From assembly GCA_002726235.1 (NCBI GenBank), contig PBSN01000008.1:98659-162658 (forward strand): DNA of 64,000 nt. The letters run 5' to 3'. Source of the DNA: Nitrospiraceae bacterium. GTDB lineage: Bacteria > Nitrospirota > Nitrospiria > Nitrospirales > UBA2166. Below the pieces are notes generated by a model. It was not told the origin of the DNA. It made no database searches and worked only from the letters and a program-made list of their open reading frames with translations. Below are positions 5,692-11,541 of the stretch, in pieces (within the stretch, counting starts at the first letter, position 1; each line of letters opens with the position of its first letter). A program made the position numbers and the translations under genes.

Positions 5692-7566
5692 ATGTTAGTG
5701 AAATCGCGTATCGTGGTATCTCCACAATCTAAGTTAAGCCTTCGGCCGGTCTGGATTACCATTCTGTTTCTGTTGCCATGCCTCGGGCTCACCTATGCCC
5801 TGAATGAATGGACTGGCGCCACTCCTTACATTCCAAGCAACATTCTCGTTTTGACGATGGTCAATGTCGACCTAATTCTTCTTGTTCTACTTGCATTGCT
5901 TCTCTCACGAAATTTGGTTAAGGCAGTTTTTGAGCGTCACTACGGTTCCGGGTTCCAGTCAAAACTAATCTTGGCGTTTGTTGGTTTTTCCCTGATCCCG
6001 TCAGGGCTCTTGTTTATTGTAGCTAGTGGGCTGTTGACCAACAGCGTGAATAATTGGTTTAGCATTCAGGTTGAACAGTCATTGAAAGGCGCCCTTGAAG
6101 TTGCACAATCCTATTACCAAGATCAGCAAACACACATACAGCAAAGTGGACAAGCCATTCGTGATGAGATTGTGCGCCGGAATCTCCTATTGCTACGCCG
6201 AGAAAAGGCATTGCGTGTTGCACTTGAACGGAAGCGTGTTGAACATGGCCTTGCGGCAGTCGAAGTCTGGTCTCCACACATGGAGCTTCTTGGTTCAGCA
6301 ACTGATCCGCATTTTCCAGAGGGCGAGTTAGGGCGCCCGATGGAGCCTGTATTGGAACAAGCCATTGCAGGTGTTCAGGAATTGTTGTTTGAGCCCACAT
6401 CGTTTGGGAAGCTCATGCTTATCGCTTTACCGATTACCTCTTCTTCGACGGCTGCAGTGTCAGCAACAAACACGGCAAATGCTATTGTTGTTGCCTATCG
6501 CATATTTCCAGAGTCGGTTGTCGCAAAGGGTGAAGATATTGTGAGTTCCTATGAAGATTACCGGCAACTTAAAGCGTTTAAAAACCCTATTAAAACGACA
6601 TATATTGTCTCTTTCGCTGTGATTGCGATGGCAATTCTGTTTTCGGCAACTTGGTTCGGCGTCTATCTTGCTCGTCGTATTACTGTGCCAATGGAAAAGT
6701 TAGCTGAAGGCACGAAGGCAGTTGCGGCGGGCAATCTTAGTGTCCACATTGATACGAAGGCTGACGGAGAAATGGGAACGCTTATGGAATCATTTAACAC
6801 CATGGCCAACGATTTGCGGGTCAGTAACGCTGAGTTGGTTAAAGCACAGAAAGTGGCAGTGTGGCGAGAGGTTGCCCAACGGATAGCGCATGAGATTAAG
6901 AATCCCCTCACACCGATTCAGCTCTCCGCCCAGCGACTCCGGAAAAAAGTGCTGGAGGGTGCAGATGGGATTCAAGAAACAGTCCAAGACGCGACAGGTA
7001 TTATCATCAATGAAGTGCAGAGCCTGATGCGCCTGGTGGATTCATTTTCCACTTTTGCACGAATGCCTGAACCAGTGATGGCGGAAGAATCCCTTCATGA
7101 TGTGATTCGTGATGTTAGCATGCTCTATACGACGTCTCAGCGGGATGTGGAGGTGAATCACAGTTTGGATGATGCCGTTCCCCCGATCTCAATCGATCGG
7201 GAACAGATGAAGCGCGTGTTTGTCAACTTGTTTGAGAACGCGATTGAGGCAATGGATCACAAGGGGAAAATCTGGGTACGAACGCGGTATGATGCTCAGC
7301 AACGCAAAGTGTATGTTGAGGTAGAAGATGAAGGGAAAGGGATTCGGCCTGAAGACCGGGATCGACTGTTTCTTCCGTATTTTTCAAACACGAAGAATGG
7401 AACAGGATTAGGATTAGCGATTGTCAATCGAATTATCACCGATCACCATGGCCAAATTCGAGTGTTGACTAATGTATCTGTCGGAACGACTTTTTTCATG
7501 GAACTGCTCGTAGGGAAGAATGGCGAACATGTTGCGGTTGCATCTCAAGGAGTAAACCATGGATAA
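5692..7566 (+). CDS. ntrY: NtrY-like sensor histidine kinase
   Basis: 624 residues. The N-terminus has three membrane segments (about 20-40, 50-75, 88-112), then an extracytoplasmic region and another segment near 305-325. A HAMP domain follows (RRITVPMEKLAEGTKAVAAG), then HisKA with phospho-acceptor His400 (RIAHEIKNPLTPIQ), and HATPase with N box (NLFENAIEAMD), G1 (DEGKGI) and G2 (GTGLGLAIV). Canonical NtrY has a PAS domain between HAMP and HisKA; none is evident. The last codons overlap by 8 bases a degenerate receiver-domain start, so the original partner was directly downstream. That partner, a receiver-LpxC fusion, now lies 2.7 kb away beyond a radical SAM gene. Confidence 0.88.
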   Translation: MLVKSRIVVSPQSKLSLRPVWITILFLLPCLGLTYALNEWTGATPYIPSNILVLTMVNVDLILLVLLALLLSRNLVKAVFERHYGSGFQSKLILAFVGFSLIPSGLLFIVASGLLTNSVNNWFSIQVEQSLKGALEVAQSYYQDQQTHIQQSGQAIRDEIVRRNLLLLRREKALRVALERKRVEHGLAAVEVWSPHMELLGSATDPHFPEGELGRPMEPVLEQAIAGVQELLFEPTSFGKLMLIALPITSSSTAAVSATNTANAIVVAYRIFPESVVAKGEDIVSSYEDYRQLKAFKNPIKTTYIVSFAVIAMAILFSATWFGVYLARRITVPMEKLAEGTKAVAAGNLSVHIDTKADGEMGTLMESFNTMANDLRVSNAELVKAQKVAVWREVAQRIAHEIKNPLTPIQLSAQRLRKKVLEGADGIQETVQDATGIIINEVQSLMRLVDSFSTFARMPEPVMAEESLHDVIRDVSMLYTTSQRDVEVNHSLDDAVPPISIDREQMKRVFVNLFENAIEAMDHKGKIWVRTRYDAQQRKVYVEVEDEGKGIRPEDRDRLFLPYFSNTKNGTGLGLAIVNRIITDHHGQIRVLTNVSVGTTFFMELLVGKNGEHVAVASQGVNHG

Positions 7567-7585
7567 AACCGTACTTTCGGACTGA
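7559..7585 (+). pseudogene. Remnant of a receiver-domain gene start
   Basis: Eight codons (MDKTVLSD) then a stop. They match the start of the intact receiver-LpxC gene at 10279 (MGETVLIVDD) in amino acids and in the overlap with the preceding kinase stop codon. The match is short, but its position directly after ntrY makes chance unlikely. I read it as the truncated original or duplicated start of the regulator gene, broken where the radical SAM segment begins. Confidence 0.6.
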
Positions 7586-7627
7586 ATCCGAACTTCCTTT
7601 TTCGCGGGAAACAGAAATTTACTGCGT

Positions 7628-9667
7628 TCAAGTATTCACAAGCGGTAAAGGATAGGCGCTTTCGGCAGGTACCATTTGTAAATTGCGCAGGAAGAGTGAG
7701 CCGATACTGCGGGCGTTTAAAACCTTCGATAAAGTTTTACCCTGTATGTCCAGCAAAAGATCGCATGCTTCACGCCGCTTAGGAGTTTCCACCAGCTTTA
7801 CCGCCATTCTATTGGTTGAAGGTGTAAATCTATCTATAGACTTCTTGGTCAATTCTCCGATGTTTTCCGGAAAACTTACCATTTTTTCCTTCAATTCACA
7901 GTCTAATGGGGGGAAAAGTGCTGAGGTAAAAGTGCTGACATCTTCTAATATCATTTCCGGAATACGTGCAAAAGATGCGATGCTACTTTGAATTGCTGTA
8001 TCAAAAGCGGACTTATATTCTTTTAGCAAGATAACGCTGAACAATATGTTCAACTTGTCGAATTCCTGATTGATTAAACGTTGAAAGTTGGTCTCATTGG
8101 AAAAGTAGGTTTCGATGTCTTCTGCGCTATCAAACCATTCAGCATGGGAAAGCTCATCAAACCGATTAAAAAAAACTGCTATGAGGCTCTGGTTTGCGTT
8201 TGGAGGCGAGCAAGTCCTCTGAGTGATTTCCAAAATATTGCGAAAGACATCTATAGGGTTGATGCCATAAAACTGGGCTACTTTCAGGAGCGGTTTGTAA
8301 ATATTTAAATTCCAGCAGAAATCAATTAGGAAATGCAATTTCCTAAAATAAAATAACTCTGACTCTCTCATCGTATTAGTCTCTCGTACACTCTCTTCAT
8401 ATTCGAAGGCATGCAGTGTTGACCCGTCAGAGCACCTGTATATTCCCGCGTCTCCATGGATGAGCCTAAACCGAGTTTTGAATCCAAACTCTTTGCGCGT
8501 TTGAGTCGAATTGGTTTCGGCCCCGGCAAGTAGACGGATGTTGTGGGTATATATAATATCAACGCCAATATCGAGAAGTTCTCTTAATGCGTCTTCATGA
8601 CTTTCCTTGGTTTCACCACCCATTGGAATGATCAATTCAGAAAACGTGTCCGACCCCATATTGCGAAATTTTTCATGGTAGTCAATATAGGTGTTCAAGG
8701 AGATATTAGAGCGTTTGATATTTTTCAAAACCTGCTCATTCAAACTCTGAACAGACATGAAAACTACGACCATGTCCCCGAGTATTTCACCGATCTCAAT
8801 GTTTCTTTGGCTGACGTTTTTGGCCATCCAAATATGGCATCTATGAGGATATCCCGTCGAATCCTTGACACGCCGAATAGCTCTAGCAATTTCAATATCA
8901 CGCGGGAAAATTCCAAAATTGGCATCGCAGATGATCCAGTTTTTCGCCTGAGTCCTCTGACCCACGTAATCGACTTCAGCCAAAGTAGTGTCCACATCAA
9001 AACGGCTGATTCGGTCTTTAGAAGCAGCGCCCCATGCACAGAATGTACACTTGTATGGGCAACCGCGGTTGCTTTCGAACATTGGGACCATTCCGGCTTC
9101 GAGAAATTCATCTAAATAACCATTCAGGTACGGTGAGGGAATATTGGTTATTATTTTCTTAAGAGGGCGAACTCCATTCGAAAGGATTTCTTTCCCATCA
9201 CGCCAAACAATATTTTGCGGCAAATGGTTATAGTCATGGTTGCTTTCACGCCACCAGGTAACTAGTTCGGAAAAGGGTTCCTCTCCACTATCGATAACAA
9301 GGAAATTCAAGTACTGATGCCGGTTGAGAAAAGCGAGGCGTCTTTCTTGGTCTGGATCGATATTAGGGCCTCCGGCCACAATCAGTGCATTTGGTAGAGT
9401 TTTTCTGATGTATCCGCCTACCGACCTATTCAAAGTTTCGTTCCAACCATAGTTTGAAAGCCCTACGATATCAGGGCGTTCTTCCACGATTTTGGAAAGG
9501 AGTTTTTCGGGATGCTTGAATAAGGTGATGTCGACGTTGGAGCCATGCATAGCTGTGGCATAGGATTTTATATAACCAATGTTTAGAGGGGTTAACAACG
9601 AATCGTTTTGAACGGAATGGGTGTGGGCCAAGTCAGCTAGAAAAATTTTGGTCGCTTTTTTCATCAT
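7628..9667 (-). CDS. B12-binding-type radical SAM protein
   Basis: 679 residues. The N-terminal part (about 1-145) looks like a cobalamin-binding Rossmann domain (ERPDIVGLSNYGWN, LIVAGGPNIDPD, FLVIDSGEEPF). The radical SAM domain follows with the cluster motif CPYKCTFC (Cys203, 207, 210). The C-terminal 250 residues have no recognisable domain. This architecture is used for methylations and ring or carbon-skeleton chemistry in natural-product and lipid pathways, but no substrate can be read. The gene is more AT-rich than its neighbours, opposite in strand to them, has no pathway neighbours, and is flanked by copies of the ntrY end. It was probably acquired. Confidence 0.8.
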   Translation of the reverse strand: MMKKATKIFLADLAHTHSVQNDSLLTPLNIGYIKSYATAMHGSNVDITLFKHPEKLLSKIVEERPDIVGLSNYGWNETLNRSVGGYIRKTLPNALIVAGGPNIDPDQERRLAFLNRHQYLNFLVIDSGEEPFSELVTWWRESNHDYNHLPQNIVWRDGKEILSNGVRPLKKIITNIPSPYLNGYLDEFLEAGMVPMFESNRGCPYKCTFCAWGAASKDRISRFDVDTTLAEVDYVGQRTQAKNWIICDANFGIFPRDIEIARAIRRVKDSTGYPHRCHIWMAKNVSQRNIEIGEILGDMVVVFMSVQSLNEQVLKNIKRSNISLNTYIDYHEKFRNMGSDTFSELIIPMGGETKESHEDALRELLDIGVDIIYTHNIRLLAGAETNSTQTRKEFGFKTRFRLIHGDAGIYRCSDGSTLHAFEYEESVRETNTMRESELFYFRKLHFLIDFCWNLNIYKPLLKVAQFYGINPIDVFRNILEITQRTCSPPNANQSLIAVFFNRFDELSHAEWFDSAEDIETYFSNETNFQRLINQEFDKLNILFSVILLKEYKSAFDTAIQSSIASFARIPEMILEDVSTFTSALFPPLDCELKEKMVSFPENIGELTKKSIDRFTPSTNRMAVKLVETPKRREACDLLLDIQGKTLSKVLNARSIGSLFLRNLQMVPAESAYPLPLVNT

Positions 9668-9677
9668 TTGATTAGCT

Positions 9678-9688
9678 GGGGGGGGGGG
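9678..9688. repeat. Homopolymer run of 11 G (C on the coding strand)
   Basis: Eleven consecutive G bases, the longest homopolymer I noticed in the window. It lies 11-21 bases before the radical SAM start codon, in the expected ribosome-binding region. No purine-rich Shine-Dalgarno is visible between it and the ATG. Such tracts slip during replication and can alter expression, but one sequence cannot show variation. Confidence 0.8.
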
Positions 9689-10054
9689 CTTAGGAGGAAT
9701 TTACGCTGACAGTTAGGTTTCGCGATCAAGATGCTTTGCGCTATTTTAAGCAGCCATTTTTCATTTTTTGTTAACTTAGCTTAAGTAAGGTTTTCATTGA
9801 AAAGTAAAAAATCTTTGAAGCTTGTCTCGAGTAGGAAAGTATCTCTTGAAGCTCAAACCTTTGTTCGAATTCGCGCCAAAGTATAACATTTATTTGCCTT
9901 TCTTTGAAGACACGGTTTTTTAAAAAAGAAATTTTAAATTGACTGAAAGTGTATCTATTTTGGAGAAATTTGCTCTTAGCACTGGATCAACTTTACACGC
10001 CGTGGTCTCTTTGCTACCTTCAGACTATTCCAGAATGATCCTTTGAATTCTTTT
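9689..10054. other. AT-rich non-coding segment upstream of the radical SAM gene
   Basis: No reading frame of convincing length on either strand, and clearly more AT-rich than the flanking genes, with many A and T runs. It presumably holds the promoter of the minus-strand radical SAM gene, but I could not single out a confident -35/-10 pair. It ends where the decayed ntrY copy begins. Confidence 0.5.
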
Positions 10055-10286
10055 TTCTAAACACGCTGTGATGCTCACGTAAAATGCATGTTGAGGCAGT
10101 AGGTAAAAGAAAATCGATTCGAATCAGTGATCGTCAACGGCATTATCATTAATCACCATGGTCAGATTTGAGTTTTTCTCAATGTATCGAAATGTATCGA
10201 GCAGAATGACTTTTGCGATGGGGATGCTTGTAAGGGAGAGTGGTGGATATATCACGGCTGCATCTCACGGAGTAGACCATGGGTGA
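10055..10286 (+). pseudogene. Decayed second copy of the ntrY 3' end
   Basis: This segment aligns with the end of the intact kinase gene. GATGCTCAC...TGTTGAGGCAG near 10073-10110 matches 7288-7330. GATCGTCAACGGCATTATC near 10129 matches 7419-7437, and AATCACCATGG is shared. About 70 bases covering the G1-to-G2 part of the ATPase domain are missing, and there are in-frame stops. The final codons (VDHG, then TGA at 10284-10286) match the intact end (VNHG, TAA) and overlap the start of the receiver-LpxC gene by 8 bases, as at the upstream copy. Confidence 0.75.
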
Positions 10287-11541
10287 AACCGTGCTTATTG
10301 TCGACGACGAGACCGCAATTCTGGAGTCTGTTTCCGGCATTCTACAAGACGAAGGGTTTAGTGTTGTGGCTGCGAATTGCAGTCGTGACGCCTTGGCCAT
10401 GATCAAGAAGTGTAATCCGTCACTTGTTCTCCTTGATGTCTGGATGCCAGATGAGGATGGCTTGACACTTTTAACGCGGCTCAAGACTTTGAGGCCGAAC
10501 ATGCCGGTGATCTTGATTACCGGTCATGGGACTATTGATACAGCTGTTCGTGCCATTCGACTTGGCGCTGTGGACTTTCTCGAAAAGCCTCTTTCATTAG
10601 ACGGTCTTGTTCAAGCTGTCAAAGGAGCAATTGGGAATGAAGTGACCAAGGTGGATGTGTTGCCCGTAAGCCAGACTGTCAAAAATCGCTATCGTGGTAG
10701 CAAAAGAGTATCGTCAGTGCCGCAACGAACAGTGGCTAAGAGTGTCGTGATAGGGGGAGTGGGGTTACACAGTGGTGTACGAACTGGCCTGATTTTGCAA
10801 CCACTCGGATTGAACAATGGGATTCGATTTAGCAGTCTTGCTGGTGATGGCGTGGTTGAGGCCCATCTTGATAATGTCGACTTGACTGGATATGCCACCA
10901 CGCTTCTCAAAGATGGGATGCGAGTACGCACAGTGGAACATTTCATGTCGTCGTTGCACGCTTATGGTATTACAAATCTTTTGGTGAAAGTTGAAGGAGA
11001 ACTTCCAATTCTTGATGGTTCTGCCAGCGAATTTTGCGAATTACTTGAGTCCGCTGGCATTGAAGAACAAGCGGGGACCTTGCCACAGATTGTCATCAAA
11101 GAACCAATTAGTGTGACAGACGGATTAGATGCCGAGATCTCGATTAGCCCGTATGAGGGATTTAAGATCACCTACGAACTCTCTCATCCACCTCCCGTTG
11201 GCGATCAAACATACACCTTTGAACTAGACTCACCTGCTGCCTTCTGTAACGAAATTGCCCCGGCGCGTACCTTCGGATTTTTAAATGAGGTGAGTGAATT
11301 GGAAGAAATGGGACTGGCCAAGGGGGGGAAACTCGACAACGTCATTCTCGTTTCAGATCACGGAGTGATTAATACCCCACTGCGGTTTTTAGAGGAATTT
11401 GCTCGCCACAAAATTCTCGACATCATAGGAGATTTTTATTTACTCGGACGGCCAATCAGCGGTGCAGTTCATGCACGAAAAACTGGCCATACCGAAAACA
11501 TTGCACTGCTACGAAAAATTCGAGAAACCATGAAACTCTAG
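10279..11541 (+). CDS. lpxC: Response-regulator receiver domain fused to LpxC (UDP-3-O-acyl-GlcNAc deacetylase)
   Basis: 420 residues. Residues 1-118 are a complete receiver domain: acidic pair Asp9/Asp10, phospho-acceptor Asp53 (LLDVWMPDEDG), Thr81 and Lys103. A linker of about 30 residues leads to LpxC (about 148-420), starting IGGVGLHSG. The zinc ligands His221 (TVEHF), His377 and Asp381 (RHKILDIIGD) and catalytic His404 (TGHTENI) are all in place. LpxC commits UDP-acyl-GlcNAc to lipid A. The fusion suggests that phosphorylation tunes deacetylase activity or stability; the NtrY-like kinase upstream is the natural candidate. The ATG overlaps a decayed kinase end. No DNA-binding or sigma-54 domain is present. 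Confidence 0.93.
   Translation: MGETVLIVDDETAILESVSGILQDEGFSVVAANCSRDALAMIKKCNPSLVLLDVWMPDEDGLTLLTRLKTLRPNMPVILITGHGTIDTAVRAIRLGAVDFLEKPLSLDGLVQAVKGAIGNEVTKVDVLPVSQTVKNRYRGSKRVSSVPQRTVAKSVVIGGVGLHSGVRTGLILQPLGLNNGIRFSSLAGDGVVEAHLDNVDLTGYATTLLKDGMRVRTVEHFMSSLHAYGITNLLVKVEGELPILDGSASEFCELLESAGIEEQAGTLPQIVIKEPISVTDGLDAEISISPYEGFKITYELSHPPPVGDQTYTFELDSPAAFCNEIAPARTFGFLNEVSELEEMGLAKGGKLDNVILVSDHGVINTPLRFLEEFARHKILDIIGDFYLLGRPISGAVHARKTGHTENIALLRKIRETMKL

Follow-up and report, generated by a model that had tools for sequence, protein, structure and literature searches.

LpxC, the enzyme at the start of lipid A synthesis, is under tight control. A literature search found no paper on control of LpxC by a fused receiver domain. 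Among described two-component systems the nearest to the locus reported here is NtrY-NtrX. In Rhodobacter, deletion of ntrYX raised lpxC transcripts 8.8-fold (PMC7240162), an indirect link between the pair and LpxC in another lineage. In other families of the order to which the present genome belongs, an ordinary NtrX gene follows ntrY and LpxC is encoded separately. A literature search on insertion between overlapping genes returned nothing on point.

The window (64,000 nt of contig PBSN01000008.1) comes from a Nitrospirales metagenome-assembled genome (MAG) of 1.87 Mb, hereafter G000. Here ntrY is followed by a gene fusing a receiver domain to LpxC, and the end of ntrY (~290 nt) together with the start of the receiver gene (~18 nt) is present twice in direct orientation (Table 1). 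A radical SAM gene lies between the two copies on the opposite strand. Three genomes of the same genus completed the set of four: G001 (UWMA-0026), G002 (OFTM238; the locus is a 5.4-kb contig of a MAG 73% complete) and G003 (UBA2166). Trees placed G000 and G003 together, apart from G001 and G002 (bootstrap 99 for codons, 73 for positions 1+2, and 64 for protein). We consider it likely that a tandem duplication across the overlapping junction provided ntrY with an end and receiver-lpxC with a start of its own, and that the spacer so opened took in different genes.

Table 1. Features of the ntrY to receiver-lpxC locus (window positions).
Feature	Position	Strand	Basis
Intact sensor histidine kinase of ntrY type, with copy A at its 3' end	5692..7566	+	Pfam HAMP, HisKA, HATPase_c, NtrY_N
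Copy A of junction, ending in truncated ORF MDKTVLSD*	7279..7576	+	Direct repeats, local alignment
Terminator-like hairpin with T-run, at end of receiver homology	7576..7592	+	Consensus scan
Inserted segment, edges estimated	7577..9991	.	Comparison with G001 spacer
B12-binding radical SAM protein, 679 aa, class-B methyltransferase type	7628..9667	-	Pfam B12-binding, Radical_SAM
Candidate radical SAM promoter, in segment best conserved with G003	9880..9908	-	Consensus match only
Conserved spacer element, core TGGTCTCTTTGCTA; candidate receiver-lpxC start region	9992..10022	+	Common to G001 and G003
Copy B of junction: decayed ntrY tail into intact receiver-lpxC start and ribosome-binding region	10060..10296	+	Repeats, alignment
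Receiver domain (5-115) fused to LpxC deacetylase (149-414)	10279..11541	+	Pfam domains, predicted structure

Structure of the Duplicated Junction

The diverged direct repeats comprised 73 nt at 74%, 106 nt at 75%, and 45 nt at 76% identity, at offsets of 2710-2775. Local alignment of 7406-7576 with 10116-10296 scored 152 against a maximum of 39 for shuffled spacer (n = 300), a control that used the spacer minus its last ~60 nt and in which the same spacer, unshuffled, still scored 96. The boundaries were refined to near 7265-7281 at the 5' end and near 7576 at the 3' end. An earlier note on this DNA, made from the letters alone, had described one intact and one decayed junction around a radical SAM gene, each keeping an 8-base overlap of kinase stop and regulator start; the alignment bears out this description, with the overlap at 7559-7566 (ATGGATAA) and at 10279-10286 (ATGGGTGA).

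Copy A is intact for ntrY. The truncated receiver start that the same note had proposed is real: it stops after eight codons, and receiver homology ends at ~7576. Compared with copy A, copy B lacks ~65 nt that correspond to the kinase ATP-lid region, has ~10 nt extra, and contains stops in the ntrY frame. Its last bases, covering the ribosome-binding region and the receiver-lpxC start, are intact, and copy B probably could decay because only these were needed.

Occupation of the Site in Related Genomes

In G003 the order of ntrY, radical SAM gene, and receiver-lpxC was the same as in G000, with DNA 83% identical. The G001 site was almost empty, with two junction copies, a short spacer, and no radical SAM gene. 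Its ntrY was followed by a start-like remnant, the spacer, a pilin-type N-terminal fragment, the last ~70 nt of copy B, and receiver-lpxC. The first 64 nt of the G001 spacer (2039-2102) were homologous to G000 9992-10055 (0 of 300 shuffles as good). The duplication can thus exist without the gene, and the earlier note's proposal that recombination brought in the radical SAM segment was only half right: G001 has both copies and the homologous spacer without the gene. The pilin fragment, of type IV (GFTLIELMVVVV; L048:2126-2263), is stranded between the two G001 junction copies.

Besides a piece of copy B (1702-1799) and the final ~50 nt of the junction, the G002 site contained a 139-aa ORF, an RsmE-type methyltransferase, and a 256-aa ORF. 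The methyltransferase and the 256-aa ORF, whose family is unassigned, lie within the decayed copy (L047:1946-3539), and a search of the other three genus genomes found no close relative of either. By alignment, the G002 spacer showed no homology to those of G000, G001, or G003.

Beyond the genus, ntrY and receiver-lpxC were found next to each other with no insert, the outcome of a comparison that the earlier note had proposed, and this adjacency is ancestral. They overlap by 4 nt (ATGA) in G226, from another Nitrospirota family, and lie ~28 nt apart in DP_36, a Deltaproteobacteria MAG.

On the 3' side of receiver-lpxC, G001 carries a gene for a 181-aa methyltransferase (L048:3659-4204), which is also present in G002 at the cut contig end. 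G003 keeps only a diverged remnant of it (62/94; 0 of 200 shuffles as good), and the G000 match (54/84) is at chance level.

Proposed History of the Locus

In the ancestor, ntrY would have overlapped receiver-lpxC by 8 bases, and the end of ntrY would have contained the ribosome-binding region of receiver-lpxC. Where genes overlap, entry of DNA breaks one of them unless the overlap is repeated, and a junction duplication lifts this barrier. A ~300-nt segment across the junction would have been duplicated, possibly with a short spacer. From then on ntrY would have ended in copy A and receiver-lpxC started in copy B, leaving the DNA between them free to change. The ancestor of G000 and UBA2166 would have captured the radical SAM gene together with a promoter for it, and other lineages other genes. 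Copy B would have decayed up to its ribosome-binding region and start. The kinase gene and receiver-lpxC, its presumed target, would have lost their translational coupling, so that receiver-lpxC would have to use its own promoter. From the anatomy of the locus, such a barrier would explain why the repeat spans exactly a gene end and a gene start, and why only the end of copy B was kept.

One duplication may have served the whole genus, or there may have been several. A single event accounts for G000 and G003, and from the shared spacer G001 would seem to have had the duplication too. Close to the start codon, the copies of G001 and those of G002 each resembled one another most (4 exclusive matches with its own copy A in G001, 11 in G002), a pattern more in keeping with repeated independent duplications or gene conversion than with a single event. 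The junction may instead have been duplicated separately in at least G002, and perhaps G001, at each entry of DNA between the overlapping genes. Repeats would then accompany every entry, since an insertion that does not repeat the overlap would put at least one of the two genes out of action. We place this reading slightly short of an even chance. The tail copies of G002 share a lineage-specific 15-nt string (GGTCAGCCGCTCGCG) besides the 11 exclusive matches, and the G001 copies have in common an 18-nt string that includes the new stop of that genome. In addition, a copy made before the G002 split should by now be unrecognisable, since dS to G002 is saturated. However, homology of the G001 and G000 spacers means that one event suffices for G000, G001, and G003, and the pattern could be imitated by gene conversion, the copies lying a few hundred bases to 3 kb from each other. 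The pattern in G002 points either to a duplication of its own or to gene conversion at a later time.

Origin of Copy B

Differences between copies A and B were spread evenly over codon positions 1, 2, and 3 (28, 26, and 30%, over 212 aligned sites in all; chi-square p = 0.87). Over the same region, orthologous ntrY tails differed by about 12-13, 9-10, and 43-44% (p = 3e-9 for G001). The G000 copy B was closest to its own copy A (72%, vs 66% for G001, 65% for G003, and 59% for G002); it aligned to the G003 copy B and grouped with it (bootstrap 71). A tree built from every A and B copy had mostly weak supports (33-71), the exception being 100 for the G002 pair.

The even differences indicate that copy B derives from the local gene and not from a diverged functional relative. 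Judged by this pattern it is a local self-duplicate that afterwards drifted freely without selection. Of the two origins offered in the earlier note, partial duplication thus holds, and recombination with a diverged relative is unneeded and disfavoured. A diverged donor of copy B was rejected, since in that case, with a functional copy imported, the differences would fall mostly at third positions.

Integration of the Campbell type, in which circular DNA from a diverged relative, bearing junction and radical SAM gene, would have deposited a junction copy on each side, is unlikely. Direct repeats bracketing a gene are its expected outcome, and the radical SAM gene, present in 6 of 295 Nitrospirota genomes, has a patchy distribution that suggests transfer. 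Even codon positions and the best match to the genome's own copy A oppose a diverged functional donor, though not a close-relative donor, and G001 carries the repeats without the gene.

The Inserted Radical SAM Gene

The G003 orthologue of the radical SAM protein was 87% identical and at the same place; ntrY orthologues in the three other genus members had 84-88% amino acid identity. Between G000 and G003, dS was 0.77 for the radical SAM gene, 0.74 for ntrY, and 0.82 for receiver-lpxC, and dN/dS was 0.09, 0.09, and 0.07, respectively. Since the radical SAM dS equals that of its flanks, the gene entered before G000 and G003 split. The duplication likewise predates this split and is old, which the earlier note had offered as one possibility. 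By its dN/dS, the gene is under purifying selection. No family is assigned to its C-terminal ~280 residues.

Insertion of a mobile element with a long target-site duplication is very improbable. The insert is indeed flanked by direct repeats, but ~300 nt far exceeds usual target duplications. Near the insert a search for an integrase, transposase, recombinase, or tRNA saw none, and viral contigs held no relative by the patterns used; with recombinase, tRNA, and viral relative all missing, this candidate was rejected. An assembly artefact can practically be set aside: the window does derive from a MAG, but the independently assembled UBA2166 has the same order, so no assembly error is involved, and the copies differ by ~28%.

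The favored reading, junction duplication followed by gene capture, would leave receiver-lpxC with a separate promoter, and the spacer element at 9992..10022 would be the region that holds it. A terminator consensus scan found 4 matches where 2.6 were expected. The candidate promoter and terminator elements, consensus matches no better than shuffles, hint at separate transcription. The copying mechanism itself was presumably tandem. Together, the almost empty site and the dated insert show how a gene can enter harmlessly between overlapping genes: the overlap is copied first.

The Receiver-LpxC Fusion

The LpxC domain is complete (TIGR00325 above cut-off). Across nine aligned fusions, LpxC residues E220, H221, H377, D381, D385, and H404 were invariant, which we take to be the zinc-site and catalytic residues of known LpxC. 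The receiver phospho-acceptor set D9, D10, D53, and K103 was likewise invariant. The predicted structure (mean pLDDT 80) has two folded domains and, between them, a disordered linker (residues 120-144, pLDDT below 50). In all four genus members, whose genomes are incomplete, this fusion was the only LpxC detected. Similar fusions were found in Nitrospirota families f17 and f38, in DP_36, and in an Aminicenantes MAG.

NtrY presumably phosphorylates the receiver, and phosphorylation may control LpxC. The fuller statement, that NtrY phosphorylates a receiver on the only LpxC of the cell and so sets lipid A synthesis through the enzyme itself, and that in this genus the overlapping pair was repeatedly split by junction duplication and capture, has in our judgment about an even chance of being right. 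The output of this two-component system appears to be LpxC itself. The fusion deserves experiments more than the duplication, which by itself is nothing unusual in evolution, though its setting is instructive.

Comparison With Known Systems

The system resembles NtrY-NtrX in that the kinase carries NtrY_N, HAMP, HisKA, and HATPase domains, and in that NtrX, the gene that follows ntrY in relatives of the order, is the best long match of the receiver. It differs in three respects. The phospho-acceptor set of NtrX is present, but the AAA+ sigma-54 domain and HTH DNA-binding output are absent and replaced by LpxC; the kinase is without a stretch between HAMP and HisKA, probably PAS, that the order's other families have, and matches their proteins as two pieces; and an insert splits the pair. 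The idea that NtrX changed through loss of sigma-54 was rejected, rpoN and sigma-54 activators being present in the genus.

Compared with other LpxC proteins, the fusion adds the N-terminal receiver and the 25-residue disordered linker, and none of the listed solved structures covers the receiver part. The radical SAM protein shares with the KedN5 type a B12-binding domain, a radical SAM core, and a CxxxCxxC-type cluster motif (CPYKCTFC), but it scores 175 bits against the NF033712 cut-off of 700, and membership in that family was rejected.

The locus is most like tandem partial duplications with gene capture, in which direct repeats of a gene end surround a foreign gene and the redundant copy decays. 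Here, by difference, an overlapping gene pair is spanned, so that duplication keeps both genes intact, and the site is filled differently in different species.
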